Shown here: positions 3,692 to 15,078 of the stretch, piece after piece
Position numbering within the stretch: position 1 is the stretch's first letter
Layout: each line of letters starts with the position of its first letter
IMG/VR virus record: IMGVR_UViG_3300042470_000189
Location: 1 to 24,041 of that record
Length of the DNA: 24,041 nucleotides
Direction: 5' to 3' (one strand)
From: a virus
The notes under the pieces: model-generated
Told to the model about the DNA's origin: nothing
What the model saw: the letters and a program-made list of their open reading frames with translations, nothing else
Database searches by the model: none
Made by a program: the position numbers and the translations under genes

Positions 3692-3716
3692 AACCCGCGC
3701 CATGCGGGTTTTTTTT
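3692..3716 (+). terminator. Intrinsic terminator closing the lysis/late operon
   Basis: A perfect 7-bp stem (3692-3698 with 3704-3710, AACCCGC/GCGGGTT) with a 5-base loop is followed by a T-run that ends at 3716 (eight T counting the stem end). It lies 26 bases after the endolysin stop and between two convergent operons, so it should end rightward late transcription. The stop codon of the leftward transporter gene lies inside the T-run. Confidence 0.9.
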
Positions 3717-4191
3717 ACTTGCTTGTCTTGGTGTTCAAAACAAAAGACCACAAGAAACCACCTAATACTTTTGCCAAAAATTGCATTGCAATGATATGAG
3801 GAATTAGTGAACCAAATGCAATCGTTGGGAATATTAAAGAATCAACTAAAGCTCCGGCAGCATTGCTTAAGTTCGCACGTATTTTCCAAGAACTATTAAG
3901 CCTTGCAAATACCAACCAATCAACTATTGATGCCGCAGTGAAAGCAATAGCTGAAGCTAATGCAATTTTCCCAGTTGCAGGATTTAAGAGTAATGTTAGC
4001 AATCCTGAAACAAGAATTAAACACCCCATTTGCCAGATTCTTAAGCGTACATGCAACCAATCTCTAAGAGTCAAATCAAGCCCTATGAACAAGAAAGCAT
4101 TAAGTGGGCTAATTGCCGGACCAAATGCTGCCACTAAAAGATTGGCAAGCGTCATGGCAACTGCGTAAATGCCTATAGCTATATAAAGCAT
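3715..4191 (-). CDS. VUT/YhhQ-family transporter, likely for a 7-deazaguanine precursor
   Basis: A 158-residue integral membrane protein with about five or six hydrophobic helices. It carries family signatures: GLDLTLRD (37-44), RANLSNAAGALVDS (105-118) followed by FPTIAFG, and KVLGGFLWS (141-149). E. coli YhhQ of this family imports preQ0 and preQ1 for queuosine synthesis; the phage copy is shorter than the roughly 220-residue YhhQ. It has a strong Shine-Dalgarno (AGGAG, five bases before ATG) and overlaps the upstream dpdA-like gene by 13 bases, so the pair is co-translated. GC in two hand-counted 60-base lines is 33-37 percent, against about 45 percent in the ssb line counted, suggesting separate acquisition. 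Substrate is inferred from the family and from its partner. It is the last gene of the leftward operon. Confidence 0.85.
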   Translation of the reverse strand: MLYIAIGIYAVAMTLANLLVAAFGPAISPLNAFLFIGLDLTLRDWLHVRLRIWQMGCLILVSGLLTLLLNPATGKIALASAIAFTAASIVDWLVFARLNSSWKIRANLSNAAGALVDSLIFPTIAFGSLIPHIIAMQFLAKVLGGFLWSFVLNTKTSK

Positions 4192-4862
4192 AAGTTCTCC
4201 TGTATAGGTCTAGTTTTCCATTTATTAGGTGGGTTTTTTGAATCAATACGCTTTGCCATGCAATAAGCGCACTCTTCTTTTTCTTTGTGATTCAAAGCAA
4301 CATTTGTGGAGTCCGCACTTGATAAAGGCCAACGTTCTAGACCTTGTCCTAACATCCGCATTCCATGCGTCCACGGTAGTCGACCGAATGTTTTTGCAAG
4401 CTGGTTGAATGTCTCATCCATTCTGCCCTGCCACTTTGCATCACCAACATTCCAGTATTTACCAGATGAGCCAAGACAAACTCGACCCCAATCGTCTACA
4501 AGCTCGCAAAGGTAATTTAACGACAATCCAAGATGCCAAACCGGTATACCTAAAGACTTTGGATATGGCCATGTTGCAACCATACTGCGCTGCTGTTCTT
4601 CTGGTCCATCAATAACATCAGGGACAACACCCCAATGTGGATGGCCTAGAATTGGGTCTAGCCATTTATAAAATCCTTCCGCATCAAACGGCAAACCCCT
4701 GGTCTTTGCACTGTATGCGCCATTGTCAAGCATTAAAGATTGCCCAATTGCTAAGCAAACCTTTAAGTCTCTTGGATCAGCGTAAGAAATGCAGAAATGC
4801 TCTCCAGCTAATGTCTCCAATACTGACTTTGGAGTAATTGGTGTGCCGTGATAATGAATCAT
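4179..4862 (-). CDS. dpdA: DpdA-like DNA guanine transglycosylase (TGT superfamily)
   Basis: A 227-residue protein that I identify as a phage DpdA, which exchanges guanine in DNA for a 7-deazaguanine base. Motifs parallel tRNA-guanine transglycosylase: DNGAYS (46-51) in the place of the TGT DSGGFQ; VVPDVIDG (79-86) at the nucleophile-aspartate position; WHLG (109-112); GSSG (131-134); and THGMRM...SADST (165-186), a His plus SxDST pattern seen in phage and archaeal relatives. It starts at an ATG overlapping the ssb stop as TAATG, with no good Shine-Dalgarno, so translation is probably coupled. Its partner downstream is a VUT transporter. No preQ0 synthesis genes (folE, queD, queE, queC) are in the window. 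Which D is nucleophile and which base is inserted are inference. Confidence 0.8.
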   Translation of the reverse strand: MIHYHGTPITPKSVLETLAGEHFCISYADPRDLKVCLAIGQSLMLDNGAYSAKTRGLPFDAEGFYKWLDPILGHPHWGVVPDVIDGPEEQQRSMVATWPYPKSLGIPVWHLGLSLNYLCELVDDWGRVCLGSSGKYWNVGDAKWQGRMDETFNQLAKTFGRLPWTHGMRMLGQGLERWPLSSADSTNVALNHKEKEECAYCMAKRIDSKNPPNKWKTRPIQENLCFI

Positions 4863-5257
4863 TAGAACGGTATGTCATCTTCAAAGTCGGTCATATCTCT
4901 ACCAGATGCTTTCGCATAAGCTTTAGCAGATGTAGAAGAATCTTCATCGCGCTTACCTAGCATTGTCAGTCTGCCGACAATAACTTCGGTGGTGTACTGG
5001 TCAATACCATCTTTAGACCACTTACGAGTTCTCAGAGAGCCCTCGATAAAGACTTGAGAGCCCTTCTTAAGGTATTTACCAGCCACCTCAGCGGCTGAGT
5101 TGAAAGCGGAGCAACGATGCCACTCGGTATGCTCTGTGCCATCTTTACCCTTTTGTGAGGTTGCTAGACTAAAGTTGCATATCGGTGTTTCTGTCTTCGC
5201 AAACGATGGGTCATTGCCAAGTCTGCCAAGCAAAAACACTTTATTGACACTACTCAT
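4862..5257 (-). CDS. ssb: Single-stranded DNA-binding protein
   Basis: A 131-residue SSB with one OB-fold (about 1-105): the family start SSVNKVFLLGRLGNDP, then TEWHRCSAFN and KGSQVFIEGSLRTRKW. A short variable linker leads to the acidic tail DFEDDIPF, the conserved tip that binds partner proteins. The start has a good Shine-Dalgarno (GGAG, five to six bases upstream). The gene overlaps the exonuclease gene upstream by 8 bases and the dpdA-like gene downstream by one. It would coat single-stranded DNA during phage replication and recombination, working with the neighbouring YqaJ nuclease and the annealing protein encoded on the other strand. Confidence 0.97.
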   Translation of the reverse strand: MSSVNKVFLLGRLGNDPSFAKTETPICNFSLATSQKGKDGTEHTEWHRCSAFNSAAEVAGKYLKKGSQVFIEGSLRTRKWSKDGIDQYTTEVIVGRLTMLGKRDEDSSTSAKAYAKASGRDMTDFEDDIPF

Positions 5258-5870
5258 GATTTCTCCGTTTATTGATAACGTCTAACTGCATATCAACCTC
5301 TGATAAAAACCGCTTTACTTCAGACTCAATTTTCTCGATCTCTTCTCTGGCTGGCTCAAACCGGATAACCAGAAGCATCATGTCCTCTGGCATACGATTA
5401 TCGAAACTAACGAAATCGCACCACTTGCGCTGCGTACAAGCTAGCTGTGCAAGCATCTGCGCTTGGTACTTACCTGGGATTTTCTGATCGCACCAATACT
5501 GAATGTGTTGCTGAGAGTTCGGGCATTTAATCTCGATAAGCCCATCATCCCCGATAAGGCCATCAGGAGATGCTCCAAACCACTTTATAGACGGGTGTTG
5601 AACGAAACCACATTCTTCAACGTCAACGCCTCTATAAGCCTCATAGACCGATCTAGCAACGGGTTCTAAGTCGATACCGCGCTGCATAGCAGAAGAAACA
5701 AAAGCATCTTCAGTAGGCGCACCTACAAGACGTTCGGTGATGACTTGGATTCTGTAGTTGGCTCTGCTTGCTGCTTCGCCACTTTTGATGGTAGCCAGTA
5801 CGTTAGACATCTGGCTTGCGGTGACATGGCCGAGTCTGGCCTGATACCAATCTTCCGTTCTTTGTTCCAT
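5250..5870 (-). CDS. YqaJ/lambda-exonuclease-family recombinase nuclease
   Basis: A 206-residue 5'-3' double-strand DNA exonuclease of the PD-(D/E)XK class. The N-terminal EDWYQARLGHVTASQ is the family start. Active-site residues appear in ASPDG (D103) and IEIKCP (E113, K115), and MQRGIDLEP (62-70) supplies the conserved Arg-Gly-Glu region. The C-terminus is a long charged helix. The start has a strong Shine-Dalgarno (GGAGG). It would resect DNA ends to give 3' tails for the DUF1071 annealing protein at 9751-10323, as lambda Exo does with Beta. It overlaps ssb by 8 bases. Absence of a Gam-type inhibitor in view is notable but the window is incomplete. Confidence 0.93.
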   Translation of the reverse strand: MEQRTEDWYQARLGHVTASQMSNVLATIKSGEAASRANYRIQVITERLVGAPTEDAFVSSAMQRGIDLEPVARSVYEAYRGVDVEECGFVQHPSIKWFGASPDGLIGDDGLIEIKCPNSQQHIQYWCDQKIPGKYQAQMLAQLACTQRKWCDFVSFDNRMPEDMMLLVIRFEPAREEIEKIESEVKRFLSEVDMQLDVINKRRNHE

Positions 5871-6349: not shown

Positions 6350-6672
6350 AGGGTTGCCCTTTCTATGTTTCGGTTGTTCACGGATTCTGTTCTCCATATT
6401 TCGATCCTGGTTTGAGCGGCTATAAGTTTCCATCTCAAACTTTCTTCAGTCTCTATTGCTTTTCTAAGGTCTGAAAGCAGCTCAATGTACTCTTGGTTAG
6501 CGTACGCATCCCTTTCTTGTGCGCCAATTGTGTCAACGCCACTACCTTGCATTAAAAGACTTTTCTTCGATTTCCTGAATTCTTCCAGGTAGACGCGAGT
6601 TGCTTTTGCCTGAGCGTAAAGCGAACTCCACTTGTAGATAAATTCAATAGCCTCGTGTGGATCATGATTCAT
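6346..6672 (-). CDS. Conserved phage protein of unknown function, helical
   Basis: A 108-residue, charged, helix-rich protein with the stretches AKATRVYLEEFRKSKKSLLM and LRWKLIAAQTRIEIWR. I recall similar proteins in replication regions of other phages, where they lack an assigned function. The ATG at 6672 is preceded by GAGG eight bases away and overlaps the upstream gene by 11 bases; a GTG at 6681 is the alternative. Between a P-like replication gene and recombination genes, it may help replication or recombination. No metal site or nucleotide-binding motif is visible. Confidence 0.7.
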   Translation of the reverse strand: MNHDPHEAIEFIYKWSSLYAQAKATRVYLEEFRKSKKSLLMQGSGVDTIGAQERDAYANQEYIELLSDLRKAIETEESLRWKLIAAQTRIEIWRTESVNNRNIERATL

Positions 6673-6991
6673 GTTGTACACCTCGTTTCATCATTGACCG
6701 AAGTTTGTTGATTTCCATCTGCCCACGCTCTTTATCAATAGGTCTGTCAAGCATTTTGACTATCGGCGGTGGAGCCATGCGGCAAACGGCGCGAAACTGA
6801 ATGACATTCGGTGGTCTCTCTGGCAGACATTCGAGGCCATATGCAATTTCGTGAGGTCTAAAGCCTTGCAGTTCTTTAGCCCAGTTTTGCATGACTTCGA
6901 TCATCTTTACATCCTTGTACTGGTCGAGAAATGCCTTTCCGTACGTTAATGCCATCTTCTTAAAAACGGTCTCAATGATGTGAATGTCCAT
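6662..6991 (-). CDS. Putative replication protein, lambda P-like position
   Basis: A 109-residue protein starting MDIHIIETVFKKMALTYG, with the later segment LQGFRPHEIAYGLECLPERP and a PPNVIQFRAVCRMAP motif. Small proteins with this 'PPNxxxFRxxCR' ending are common directly downstream of O-like initiators in phage genomes. The position matches lambda P, which hands the host DnaB helicase to the origin. It has a strong Shine-Dalgarno (GGAGGG) and its ATG overlaps the upstream stop as TAATG. A helicase-loading role is inferred from order and general resemblance; it is shorter than lambda P. Confidence 0.6.
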   Translation of the reverse strand: MDIHIIETVFKKMALTYGKAFLDQYKDVKMIEVMQNWAKELQGFRPHEIAYGLECLPERPPNVIQFRAVCRMAPPPIVKMLDRPIDKERGQMEINKLRSMMKRGVQHES

Positions 6992-7737
6992 TAGCCCTCC
7001 AATAGGTTTTGGTCAGGGGTAATGTCAATTTCTCGCCTACGGCCAAAAATCACATCAATGCTTTCTTTGTAGTTGTCCTCCTTTTTAATGTCGTCTGTAA
7101 CCCAATCAGCTTTGAAACCTTGCCAGCCTCTAGCGCAGCAGAGCTGAAGAACTTTCTCCAAAGACATACCAGCATTGCTAGCCTCTCGCTTTATGCCTTT
7201 CAGGGCAGTCTCGGTGAGTGGAGACTTCTTCGCCCGCCTGATTGCTAAGAAGTCATTCCAAACACTTTCACTGACATCAATAGGCTTAAGCGAGCTTGCC
7301 GAGCTTGTCTTTATAGTTGGTTGTTGGTTACTGGTTATTGGTTGTTGGTTATTGGTTGGTTGCACGGTCGTCGAACGGTCGTTTAACGGTCGTTGAACTG
7401 ATGTTGAACGCTTGTTCATCGCTCGTTTAGCGGCTGATGCTTTTCCAGCCTTTGAAGCAGCTTCAAGTTGCTGCCTGTAGTGGCTTATTTCCTTGTCGCA
7501 ACGCTTGTGATGCCATTTGTCTTCTTCAAGAACAAAAAACATCTCTAGCAAGCCAGAGATAAGGTCTTCCTTATCACGTCCATTTACTTTCATTGAAAGT
7601 TCAAACATTGAGTTTGGAAGCGGCTTTTCTGTATCGTAGTAAAGCCACAATAGCTTCAAATAAATACCAACTTCTTCGTTGGTAAGAAATGAAGTGTCCT
7701 TGATGAAGTCACCGATATGGTGCTGATAGTAGTGCAT
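6991..7737 (-). CDS. DUF1376 (YdaU-like) replication initiator, O-like
   Basis: A 248-residue protein. Residues 1-90 match the DUF1376 start (YYQHHIGDFIKDTSFLTNEE, GIYLKLLWLYYDTEKPLP), a winged-helix-type domain common in phage replication initiators. Residues about 95-145 are a low-complexity linker rich in Ser, Thr, Gln, Asn and Arg. A C-terminal domain follows (SVWNDFLAIRRAKKSPLTET...GWQGFKADWV). The linker DNA carries tandem 11-bp and 21-bp repeats, as lambda O carries the origin within its gene. The start has the Shine-Dalgarno GAGGG. It is the first gene after the leftward promoter at 7834-7863. Origin binding is inferred from this arrangement. Confidence 0.82.
   Translation of the reverse strand: MHYYQHHIGDFIKDTSFLTNEEVGIYLKLLWLYYDTEKPLPNSMFELSMKVNGRDKEDLISGLLEMFFVLEEDKWHHKRCDKEISHYRQQLEAASKAGKASAAKRAMNKRSTSVQRPLNDRSTTVQPTNNQQPITSNQQPTIKTSSASSLKPIDVSESVWNDFLAIRRAKKSPLTETALKGIKREASNAGMSLEKVLQLCCARGWQGFKADWVTDDIKKEDNYKESIDVIFGRRREIDITPDQNLLEG
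7317..7358. repeat. Two 21-bp direct repeats beside the iteron array
   Basis: Units 7317-7337 and 7338-7358 match at 19 of 21 positions and begin with the identical 14-mer TTGGTTGTTGGTTA. On the coding strand they encode a Gln/Asn/Thr-rich linker. The period is seven codons, so protein-level repetition could explain it, but it directly adjoins the 11-bp array and could belong to the origin as an unwinding or binding element. Confidence 0.75.
7364..7429. repeat. Tandem 11-bp iterons, probable replication origin
   Basis: Six contiguous 11-bp units start at 7364, 7375, 7386, 7397, 7408 and 7419. With the consensus ACGGTCGTTGA, the units match at 10, 10, 11, 8, 8 and 8 of 11 positions. C at position 2, G at 7, T at 8 and A at 11 are present in all six. 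Because 11 is not a multiple of three, the repetition cannot come from a repeated peptide and must be kept at DNA level. Eleven bases is about one helical turn, so bound proteins would line up on one face. The array lies in the linker of the DUF1376 initiator gene, as in lambdoid origins. Confidence 0.75.
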
Positions 7738-9705: not shown

Positions 9706-9711
9706 TAGTTG

Positions 9712-9720
9712 TGTTATAGT
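9712..9720 (+). promoter_or_regulatory. Candidate extended -10 promoter before the annealing-protein gene
   Basis: TGTTATAGT at 9712-9720 is an extended -10 element (TGn plus TATAGT, five of six matches). No good -35 is present, as is common for extended -10 promoters. It lies 30 bases before the ATG at 9751, in one of the few gaps in this operon. Confidence 0.5.
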
Positions 9721-9750
9721 AGAACTTCATCAAATACAGGAGTGAAGGAA

Positions 9751-10323
9751 ATGTACGAAAAACTTAGATCAATCAATGTCAAGCCAATGGTAGAGCACAA
9801 GGATGGCTTGTCATACTTAAGTTGGGCTTATGCCTGGGATACGTTTGCAAGCAATATCCCTGATGCAACTTACGAAATCATCAAGCACGAGAATGGCTTA
9901 CCAGTATTCGAGTCTGCTGCTGGCGCAATGGTTTACACGAAAGTCACTGCAAACGGCGTGACTCATGAGATGTGGTTACCTGTGATGGATCACAGAAACC
10001 GAGCGATGAAGTCTGAGCCCTACACCTACAAAACATCCAAAGGCGAGCAAACCGTTCAGGCTTACACGATGATGGACGTTAACAAGGCCGTGATGCGGTG
10101 CTTGGTCAAGAACCTTGCCATGTTTGGTTTAGGGATTGCGATCTACGCAGGAGAAGACCTTCCAGACGATGACGATCCAGTGATTGACAGGATCAAGTCA
10201 GCGCAGACAGAAGAAGAGCTCACAGAGGTGTTTAAGAGTGCTGTAAAAGAGTTTATGAGCAACAACGCAATGATGATTAAGTTGGCAGCAGCTAAAGAAG
10301 CTCGCAAGAAGGAACTCAAATGA
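9751..10323 (+). CDS. Single-strand annealing protein, DUF1071/Sak-like
   Basis: A 190-residue recombinase-type protein. The N-terminal MVEHKDGLSYLSWAYAWDTF is the DUF1071 signature, and the middle contains AMVYTKVTANGVTHEMWLPV, MMDVNKAVMRCLVKNLAMFG and GLGIAIYAGEDLP, all typical of this annealing-protein family. The C-terminal 45 residues are charged and helical. It would anneal resected strands together with the YqaJ exonuclease and SSB, which are encoded leftward in the other early operon. The ATG at 9751 has AAGGA right before it; an upstream in-frame start at 9709 would include the promoter-like element and is rejected. Confidence 0.88.
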   Translation: MYEKLRSINVKPMVEHKDGLSYLSWAYAWDTFASNIPDATYEIIKHENGLPVFESAAGAMVYTKVTANGVTHEMWLPVMDHRNRAMKSEPYTYKTSKGEQTVQAYTMMDVNKAVMRCLVKNLAMFGLGIAIYAGEDLPDDDDPVIDRIKSAQTEEELTEVFKSAVKEFMSNNAMMIKLAAAKEARKKELK

Positions 10324-13624: not shown

Positions 13625-13814
13625 CTGCGAGTCATGCAGGCATAGCGTTGGCTGTGGCGAGATGAGGCTAGGCAATGAGGTTATTCGCAAGATGCTGATT
13701 TGCAAGCTAACGAATGTATTCGCAGTGGACCCTTGTAGGAAATACGAGTATGAGCCAGGAACAGATTCAGAAACTACCAATCGACACACTAATACCGTAC
13801 GCCAACAACGCTAG
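13605..13814 (+). CDS. Small cysteine-rich protein, probable zinc binder
   Basis: A 69-residue protein with cysteines spaced CESC, then GCG, LICK and DPCRKYE, a pattern seen in small phage zinc-ribbon-like proteins. The N-terminal 50 residues look folded; the last 20 are polar and Thr/Arg rich and lie in the 65-base overlap with the ParB-methyltransferase gene, so that tail may be tolerated read-through. The ribosome-binding site AAGGCGAG precedes the ATG. Function is unknown. Confidence 0.55.
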   Translation: MSTFQPSCESCRHSVGCGEMRLGNEVIRKMLICKLTNVFAVDPCRKYEYEPGTDSETTNRHTNTVRQQR

Positions 13815-15078
13815 AGTGCATTCGGACAAGCAGATATTGCAAATTGCATCAAGTATTAAGGAGTTTGGCTTTACTAACCCTGTACTGATTGACAAAGACA
13901 ACGGCATCATTGCAGGCCACGGAAGGGTTGAGGCTGCAAGAAAGCTAGGGCATAAAGAGGTTCCGGTTATCAGACTTGAGCACCTGAGCGAAGCTCAGAA
14001 GAAGGCTTACATCCTTGCAGACAACAAGATAGCGATGAACTCGACCTGGGACGATCAGCTACTTGCGTTAGAGCTGCAAACGATAGGCGATCTAGGTATC
14101 AACTTAGACTTCACTGGCTTTGACGAGTCAGAAATTTCTGAGCTTACTCCACAAGAAATAACAGAAGGTCTAACAGATGAGGACGCCGTACCAGAACCAC
14201 CTCCTGAGCCTATTACCAAACCTGGGGATATTTGGATACTAGGAAATCATAGGCTTATGTGCGGTGATTGCAGGGATTTCGATGATGTTCAAAAAGTGTT
14301 AAATGGAGCAAAAATCAATCTTGTGATTACTTCACCGCCTTACGCATCTCAAAGAACTTATGACGAAAAATCTAAGTTCAAACCTATTGCTCCAGATGAG
14401 TATGTAGATTGGTATAGAGATGTTGCATCTAACATTTATGCAAATCTTGATGAAAATGGATCTTATTTCTGCAACATAAAGCCAAATGCAGAGGGGTTAT
14501 CTCGTGAACTTTATGTATTTGATCTTGTTTTAGCTCATGTGAGAGATTGGGGCTGGAATTATGCAGATGAATTTTGTTGGGAAAGAAATGGAATCCCGCA
14601 ACAAGTAATTCGTAGATTCAAAAATCAATTTGAGCCTATTTATCATTTCACTAAAGGAGAATGGAAGTTTAGGCCAGACGAAGTAAAACATCAGTCAAAG
14701 TCGGTCCCAAAAGCTAGAGGGAAAGGATCTGGAAATACAAATGCTGCTCTTAGGCAAGGATTTGCATCTGCGGTTGATGGTAACGAAATTGTTGAGGGTA
14801 TGGCTTATCCAGGGAACAGATTACCAACGTTTCAATCAGAAGCTTTAGGACATCCAGCCGCTTATCCAGTTGGACTTCCAGAGTTTTTTATAAAGGCATA
14901 CACGGATATTAAAGATGTTGTATTCGATCCTTTTATGGGGAGTGGGTCAACCATAATTGCAGCAGAAAAGAATGGAAGGAAATCAATAGGAACGGAAATA
15001 AGTCCGCTTTACATTGATCTTATTGTTAAACGATGGGAAGAATTTACAGGAAAGAAAGCAGTGCTAGAGACTAACTAA
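13750..15078 (+). CDS. ParB-domain fused beta-class DNA methyltransferase
   Basis: A 442-residue two-domain protein. Residues about 8-135 are a ParB/sulfiredoxin-type domain (LIPYANNARVHSDKQI, NGIIAGHGRVEAARKLG). A Pro-rich linker (147-157) leads to an N4/N6-type methyltransferase with TSPPY (194-198) as motif IV and DPFMGSG (393-399) as the AdoMet-binding motif; motif IV coming first marks the beta class. It would methylate adenine N6 or cytosine N4 in a short target, most likely to shield phage DNA from host restriction. No restriction enzyme gene is adjacent. ATG 13750 has TAGGA nine bases upstream. GC falls from about 50 percent in the ParB part to 30-40 percent in the methyltransferase part, by hand count of single lines. 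Confidence 0.9.
   Translation: MSQEQIQKLPIDTLIPYANNARVHSDKQILQIASSIKEFGFTNPVLIDKDNGIIAGHGRVEAARKLGHKEVPVIRLEHLSEAQKKAYILADNKIAMNSTWDDQLLALELQTIGDLGINLDFTGFDESEISELTPQEITEGLTDEDAVPEPPPEPITKPGDIWILGNHRLMCGDCRDFDDVQKVLNGAKINLVITSPPYASQRTYDEKSKFKPIAPDEYVDWYRDVASNIYANLDENGSYFCNIKPNAEGLSRELYVFDLVLAHVRDWGWNYADEFCWERNGIPQQVIRRFKNQFEPIYHFTKGEWKFRPDEVKHQSKSVPKARGKGSGNTNAALRQGFASAVDGNEIVEGMAYPGNRLPTFQSEALGHPAAYPVGLPEFFIKAYTDIKDVVFDPFMGSGSTIIAAEKNGRKSIGTEISPLYIDLIVKRWEEFTGKKAVLETN

Follow-up and report, generated by a model that had tools for sequence, protein, structure and literature searches.

Several known replication systems bear on the locus analyzed here. In lambda and Stx phages, the origin lies in the middle of gene O, with 19-bp imperfect inverted-repeat iterons located beside an A+T-rich tract (PMC7466680). 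RepA_N plasmids, such as pSK41, likewise carry the origin inside the rep gene, and the N-terminal winged helix of the initiator reads the Rep boxes (PMC5703833). The PLE satellites of Vibrio cholerae swap RepA and ori together; their origin is intergenic and contains iterons of ~30 bp (PMC8263062). At the RK2-type plasmid origins, Rep binds repeated single-stranded 13-mers that are positioned beside the iterons (PMC4081077). Finally, an active origin, oriJ, is carried by the Rac prophage of E. coli K-12 (PMC3945230). Lambdoid phages and RepA_N plasmids thus already show that an origin can lie inside an initiator gene.

The window, i.e., the whole stretch of DNA analyzed here, is a 24-kb fragment of a virus record (IMGVR_UViG_3300042470_000189; 24,041 nt). 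The original prediction proposed a probable, lambda-like origin built from iterons inside an initiator gene. An origin is still the best-supported reading, given the DUF1376 domain, the O-like match over residues 92-216, the conserved arrays and the replication genes beside the initiator gene in some isolates; the repeat units differ from those of lambda. Judging from sequence, we put the probability at about three in four that this is a tailed-phage replication origin located inside its own initiator gene, in which the iterons would be bound as duplex DNA and an adjoining array of 7-mers would be opened.

The putative initiator gene and its two arrays

The putative initiator gene occupies 6991-7737 on the minus strand and encodes a 248-residue protein: a winged-helix-like DUF1376 N domain is followed by a long helix, a linker and a C-terminal helical domain. 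DUF1376 (PF07120; residues 2-84; 4.5e-23, 81.9 bits against a curated cut-off of 30.1) is the sole Pfam match, and residues 92-216 match phrog_678, annotated as “replication initiation O-like” (3.2e-20). The neighboring gene (6662-6991) has no recognized helicase or loader match. The GC-skew minimum of the window falls at 6-8 kb; because it coincides with a switch in gene direction, it is not decisive for the location of the origin.

Other parts of the window have features of their own. At 3715-4862, a queuine tRNA-ribosyltransferase-like gene (phrog_887) lies beside a Vut_1/queuosine-precursor-transporter-like gene, a pair that possibly mediates deazaguanine modification of the phage DNA. A YqaJ/lambda-exonuclease-type gene with SSB (4862-5870) and, on the other side, the gene of a Sak-like annealing protein (9709-10323) make up a recombination module divided between divergent operons. 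At 13714-15078, a ParB-like domain and a DNA methyltransferase are fused in a single frame.

Six contiguous 11-bp units had been predicted at 7364-7429, with 8 to 11 positions of each matching a consensus, and this part of the prediction stands: a period-11 array is recovered by Tandem Repeats Finder and by a second repeat search, and the units counted by eye from 7364 match ACGGTCGTTGA at 10, 10, 11, 8, 8 and 8 positions. In the register GTTGAACGGTC, the array spans 7359-7435 and its units match at 10, 10, 10, 8, 9, 8 and 7 of 11 positions; it consists of six iterons (7359-7424, minus strand), which have the class-A consensus RRnYGTT(C/G)AAC on the coding strand, and a weak seventh unit (7 of 11; 7425-7435, minus strand) that overlaps the motif codons described below. 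The period-11 self-match at 7362, with 42 of 55 positions, is the best in the window (maximum of 32 in 200 dinucleotide-preserving shuffles of the whole window), and GTTSAAC-N4-GTTSAAC with up to two mismatches occurs five times in the window, always within the array, against 0.31 expected. The units contain a 7-bp pseudo-palindromic core. The central base of GTTNAAC in the arrays is C in 93 cases, G in 40, A in 14 and T in 4; the pseudo-palindrome is only moderately supported, since the control, taken over the whole locus, includes the arrays and is contaminated by them.

What the original array call overlooked is that these iterons directly abut a second array: about six 7-bp units, AACCAAT/C, at 7316-7358 on the minus strand (TTGGTTR 7-mers on the given strand), proposed to be the DNA unwinding region. 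With up to two mismatches, AACCAATAACCAA is found five times in the window against 0.67 expected. The coding strand of the second array is almost all A and C; the 43-bp segment is 60% A+T and only moderately unstable, with ~6% of 50-bp windows being less stable.

For the window protein, AlphaFold2 predicts (pLDDT 85) a winged-helix-like domain, a long helix (residues 78-110; 7408-7506) with AGKASAAKR in its C-terminal half (residues 97-105; codons at 7423-7449), a linker and a helical C-terminal domain (residues 147-231; 7045-7299), all encoded on the minus strand. The linker encoded by the arrays is predicted to be disordered (pLDDT 53-63). A Lin1244 class-A protein has the same predicted layout, with the helix at residues 89-120 and the motif at 108-116 (pLDDT 72). 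Foldseek produced no match at E up to 0.001, the best being the DnaD N domain at E 0.98; weak winged-helix fold matches are led by the Zb domain of ADAR1 (Z 6.0, VIA), and the RepA_N folds 4pta and 5kbj, with Z 4.3 and 4.1, are two of the many winged helices matched.

Conservation of the arrays as DNA

Are the repeats kept for the DNA or for the peptide that they encode? The original argument, that a period which is not a multiple of three precludes a peptide repeat, is unsound: three 11-bp units make 33 bp, which encode an 11-residue repeat, DRSTTVQRPFN. Three units traverse all three frames anyway, and reading-frame phase was dropped as a test. The claim that selection acts on the DNA is nevertheless upheld by the relatives, which keep the GTT-AAC core even at wobble positions. 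Across the 241 units of 56 protein-found class-A clusters, the GTT and AAC columns that fall at third codon positions hold the consensus base in 0.83-0.99 of units, as compared with 0.38-0.76 in synonymous shuffles; the flanks (four columns) and the C/G at the center of the iteron are variable in these same clusters. On this wobble-position test, an explanation based on the peptide only is rejected.

Periodicity was scored as above synonymous shuffles when no more than 3 of 300 were as high. Of the 58 genome clusters, 18 pass for period 11 and 29 for period 7; of the 45 viral clusters, 34 and 38 do, respectively. Protein-found clusters whose period-11 signal does not rise above the shuffles are many and come mostly from genomes (40 of the 58 genome clusters). 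The junction between the arrays is fixed as well: in 42 of 56 class-A arrays, the last 11-mer stops exactly 1 bp ahead of the first AACCA. Taken together, the wobble-position conservation of the core, the two periods and the 1-bp junction argue for selection at the DNA level. The comparison with relatives that the original prediction called for points the same way: many relatives found by protein alone keep the 11-bp array at the same place, across all codon positions, with the second array next to it. The two arrays, the way they are conserved as DNA, their constant order and the way they join are thus seen directly in the sequences.

A short motif, the iteron class and the second array

Relatives were sought with an N-domain alignment of residues 1-102, which is array-free and ends at AGKASA, and the peptide patterns for the scans were drawn from the first ten residues. 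The 278 loci with an N-domain match form 131 clusters at 75% identity, of which 129 entered the tree and the tables (two with weak N-domain matches were left out); 108 of these are protein-found, clusters found by iteron DNA being excluded from the protein-found table. The iterons fall into classes, each paired with a motif: AGKxSAxxR goes with GTT(C/G)AAC (class A), SAxxRW with GCAATGC (B), GGRPK with AACCCA/TGGGTT (C) and an Arg-rich RER with CCTG(T/C)AACG (E). Among the 108 protein-found DUF1376 clusters, those with AGxxS are A in 54 cases, another class in none and untyped in 2 (L255, with GGRPSG, is not counted as AGxxS); those with xRW are B in 14 cases, another class in none and untyped in 5; 16 GGRP clusters are C and 7 RER clusters are E; and clusters lacking a motif comprise 3 E, 1 C and 6 untyped. 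No mismatch between motif and iteron class occurs among the 91 typed protein-found clusters with a motif, 11 A, 2 B, 2 C and 1 E clusters being typed by a single core. Exceptions are L273 and L250, which carry AGKASA yet are not typed A, and L208, L312, L340, L342 and L343, which carry RW yet are not typed B. The last three share the motif NQIRW and have, in place of a B core, GATC-containing repeats ahead of the same AACCAAT array; they perhaps represent a further motif-iteron class.

The protein-found table is not blind, because the B, C and E cores were picked after inspecting the sequences; searches that start from DNA come nearer to blind. A class-A 22-mer retrieved 116 loci, with AGxxS[AG]xxR in 112 of 115 reading frames, and a class-B 22-mer retrieved 55, with xRW in 53 of 54; in background windows, the A-type motif occurs in 33 of 1382 and the B-type in 92 of 1382. 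After clustering 161 of the 169 frames at 75% (the 8 omitted ones were short or placed the site no more than 60 residues from their first residue), the expected motif is present in 49 of 50 A and 33 of 34 B clusters. The exceptions are L010 (AGVASAAAKQAR), L051 (a cut contig), L066 (a 74-residue frame that is probably not the initiator gene) and L369; two further DNA-found loci, L098 and L394, have no long reading frame.

How far does the association extend beyond common descent? The A and B pairings are both present in DUF1376 proteins, in Lin1244_N proteins and in proteins that fit neither pattern; when Lin1244 proteins are aligned, the A form of the motif falls on the B form, with S and R invariant. 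When classes are set from the DNA alone, the 12 protein columns that carry the most information all lie within residues 91-108. On the DUF1376 tree, which is built on 88 N-domain residues from 129 clusters and is poorly resolved, the motif and iteron labels change 22 and 21 times; independent pairs number 3 on well-supported branches (sign test p 0.25) and 12 on all branches, so that the tree lends limited support. Fisher tests of motif against iteron (1.3e-13, 2.7e-9 and 1.4e-12) ignore kinship and are not relied on.

The second array obeys a different rule. In DNA-found DUF1376-HYY clusters, it is AACCA in 30 of 45 and AAAG in 0 of 45, while in DNA-found Lin1244 clusters it is AAAG in 20 of 21 and AACCA in 0 of 21; the split is seen with both A and B iterons, only 3 of the Lin1244 clusters being B. 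The second array therefore tracks the N domain, or a fellow traveler such as host group, and not the iteron. Statistically, then, motif class predicts iteron class and the N-terminal family predicts the second array. The N domain and the second array flank the motif-iteron stretch on either side, a pattern suggestive of exchange of that stretch inside the gene.

Of 30 new genome loci, 23 were examined, each having an open frame that matches the N domain; the other 7 had none. B cores are present in L498 and L502 (both RW; 3 and 1, respectively), L501 (GGRP) has 6 C cores and L513 (AGKRSAESR) has 4 A cores plus one B; no matching core was found in L500 (GGRP) and L503 (RW). L515 (KGIKSALAR) has 2 A cores even though the pattern missed its motif, and L499 is the known L243 locus. 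The other 15 examined loci have no motif, and cores appear only in L522 (one A), L524 (one B), L512 and L516 (one C each). Among viral Lin1244 loci, 79 of 80 have AGxxS with A cores, many of these loci duplicating earlier contigs. Two Bacteroidota Lin1244 loci from which the motif is absent, L510 and L511, carry different repeats ahead of a AAAGTAAAG array. A Lin1244_N search in the 12 genomes behind the loci found nothing.

Twelve isolate records, picked by hand, extend the comparison to named phages. Moraxella phage Mcat18, Bordetella phage IFTN2 and Methylophilaceae phage P19250A have at least two A cores together with AGKASA or AGRVSA, and Pseudomonas phage AH02 has AGKASA and one A core; Rb1, BA3, Ab105-1phi, zth2-2 and fThrA combine a GGR motif with C cores. 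Vibrio 1.137.O has GGRP and no clear array, and in the two Rac-type phages AGKASV is accompanied by a degenerate array. In 5 of these 12 isolates, the gene that follows carries a helicase, helicase loader, DnaC-like or replication protein annotation. In E. coli K-12, YdaU (L417:4120-4977) is a DUF1376 protein with AAGKASVQAR and degenerate GTTCAAA-like units, and ydaV follows it.

A proposed modular origin and its relation to known systems

The available data suggest the following model. The DUF1376 protein probably binds the array in its own gene, recognizing the 11-bp iterons in double-stranded form, with one unit for each helical turn; the contact would be made by the short motif, at the C-terminal end of the long helix that follows the winged-helix domain. 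The complex would then open the adjoining AACCAAT 7-mers, keep one strand single-stranded and allow the helicase to be loaded at the opened array. Binding, the DNA-touching residues, melting, loading of the helicase and initiation of replication are inferred from sequence comparisons; a motif-iteron recognition code is strongly suggested, and these phages seem to possess modular origins with two separate repeat codes.

Could the winged-helix core read the iterons instead, with the motif traveling along by descent, so that the link would reflect shared ancestry and not a recognition code? The predicted core is winged-helix-like and weakly matches the folds of the DnaD N domain and of pSK41 RepA_N, a protein that reads its Rep boxes through a winged helix (PMC5703833), and the poor resolution of the N-domain tree leaves room for descent. 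Yet the same motif-iteron pairs recur in two Pfam N-domain families and in proteins fitting neither pattern, both labels change repeatedly within DUF1376 (the 22 and 21 changes noted above), and the informative columns, at 91-108, lie outside the core; we consider core reading unlikely.

The remaining alternatives question what the array is for. Iteron arrays are known to serve control as well as initiation, and this array could be an operator through which the DUF1376 protein or a repressor controls its own expression or copy number, with no part in the start of replication. Against this stand the two arrays in a fixed order and in contact, the second of them A/C-rich, the O-like match of the protein and the replication genes next to the gene in 5 of 12 isolates; this explanation appears improbable. 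Even less credit is due to the idea that the repeats are by-products of a low-complexity linker, which spread by slippage and were kept for the peptide: the linker is indeed predicted to be disordered (pLDDT 53-63) and the array does encode an 11-residue repeat, but the core bases are conserved at wobble positions, period 11 stands above synonymous shuffles (18 of the 58 genome clusters, 34 of the 45 viral ones) and exact cores recur in two protein families.

A phage origin with iterons and a melting array thus remains the preferred reading, and a more ambitious version of it can be offered tentatively, as a conjecture that we would not bet on: many tailed phages may share one kind of modular origin with two independent codes, in which a ten-residue motif reads a 7-9 bp pseudo-palindrome per helical turn, perhaps as a bZIP-like dimer with the reading end reversed, the winged-helix family sets the melting array, and the motif-iteron cassette is swapped while its flanks are kept. 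bZIP proteins are dimers of long helices that grip a short palindrome; the analogy is prompted by the long helix, its hydrophobic spacing (I84, Y87, L91, A94; read by eye) and the 7-bp pseudo-palindromes.

No published account of phage-shared 11-bp iterons tied to a ten-residue motif, together with a second array linked to the N domain, was found among titles and abstract openings in the open literature. The apparently new elements are an 11-bp iteron class common to phage initiators that follows this motif, and a further array that follows the N domain. PF07120 is listed as a family of “unknown function,” and DUF1376 and Lin1244 are phage families with no established role in Pfam. If the motif-iteron link holds, sequence would be enough to tell the origin specificity of many uncultured phages and to find their origins, with no experiment needed, and the short helix motif would serve as a test case for changes in the DNA specificity of initiators; a two-part, swappable origin could be tested in ordinary laboratory plasmids.

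Among the known systems, lambda is similar in having tandem repeats midway through the initiator gene, and residues 92-216 of the window protein match an O-like PHROG. The lambda iterons, however, are 19-bp imperfect inverted repeats, against units of 11 bp around a 7-bp pseudo-palindromic core at this locus, where the adjoining tract also forms a regular array and the initiator has a DUF1376 N domain. The Rac prophage offers another parallel, a DUF1376 protein with AAGKASVQAR followed by ydaV, but its array is degenerate. With pSK41, the locus shares a (proposed) origin within the initiator gene, a (predicted) N-terminal winged helix and an origin-coded linker; the differences are that the protein has no RepA_N Pfam match, the fold likeness is weak (Z 4.1-4.3) and the repeats are of another type. 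RK2, which combines iterons with a second repeated array in the unwinding region, provides a model for what the 7-mers might do, putative single-strand binding included; the units here are 7-mers that differ between N-domain families. In PLE satellites, as here, the DNA-binding region of the initiator (a putative one here) and the iterons change jointly while the C-terminal region is kept; however, it is the whole RepA_N domain that covaries there, whereas about ten residues track the iteron across N-domain families here.
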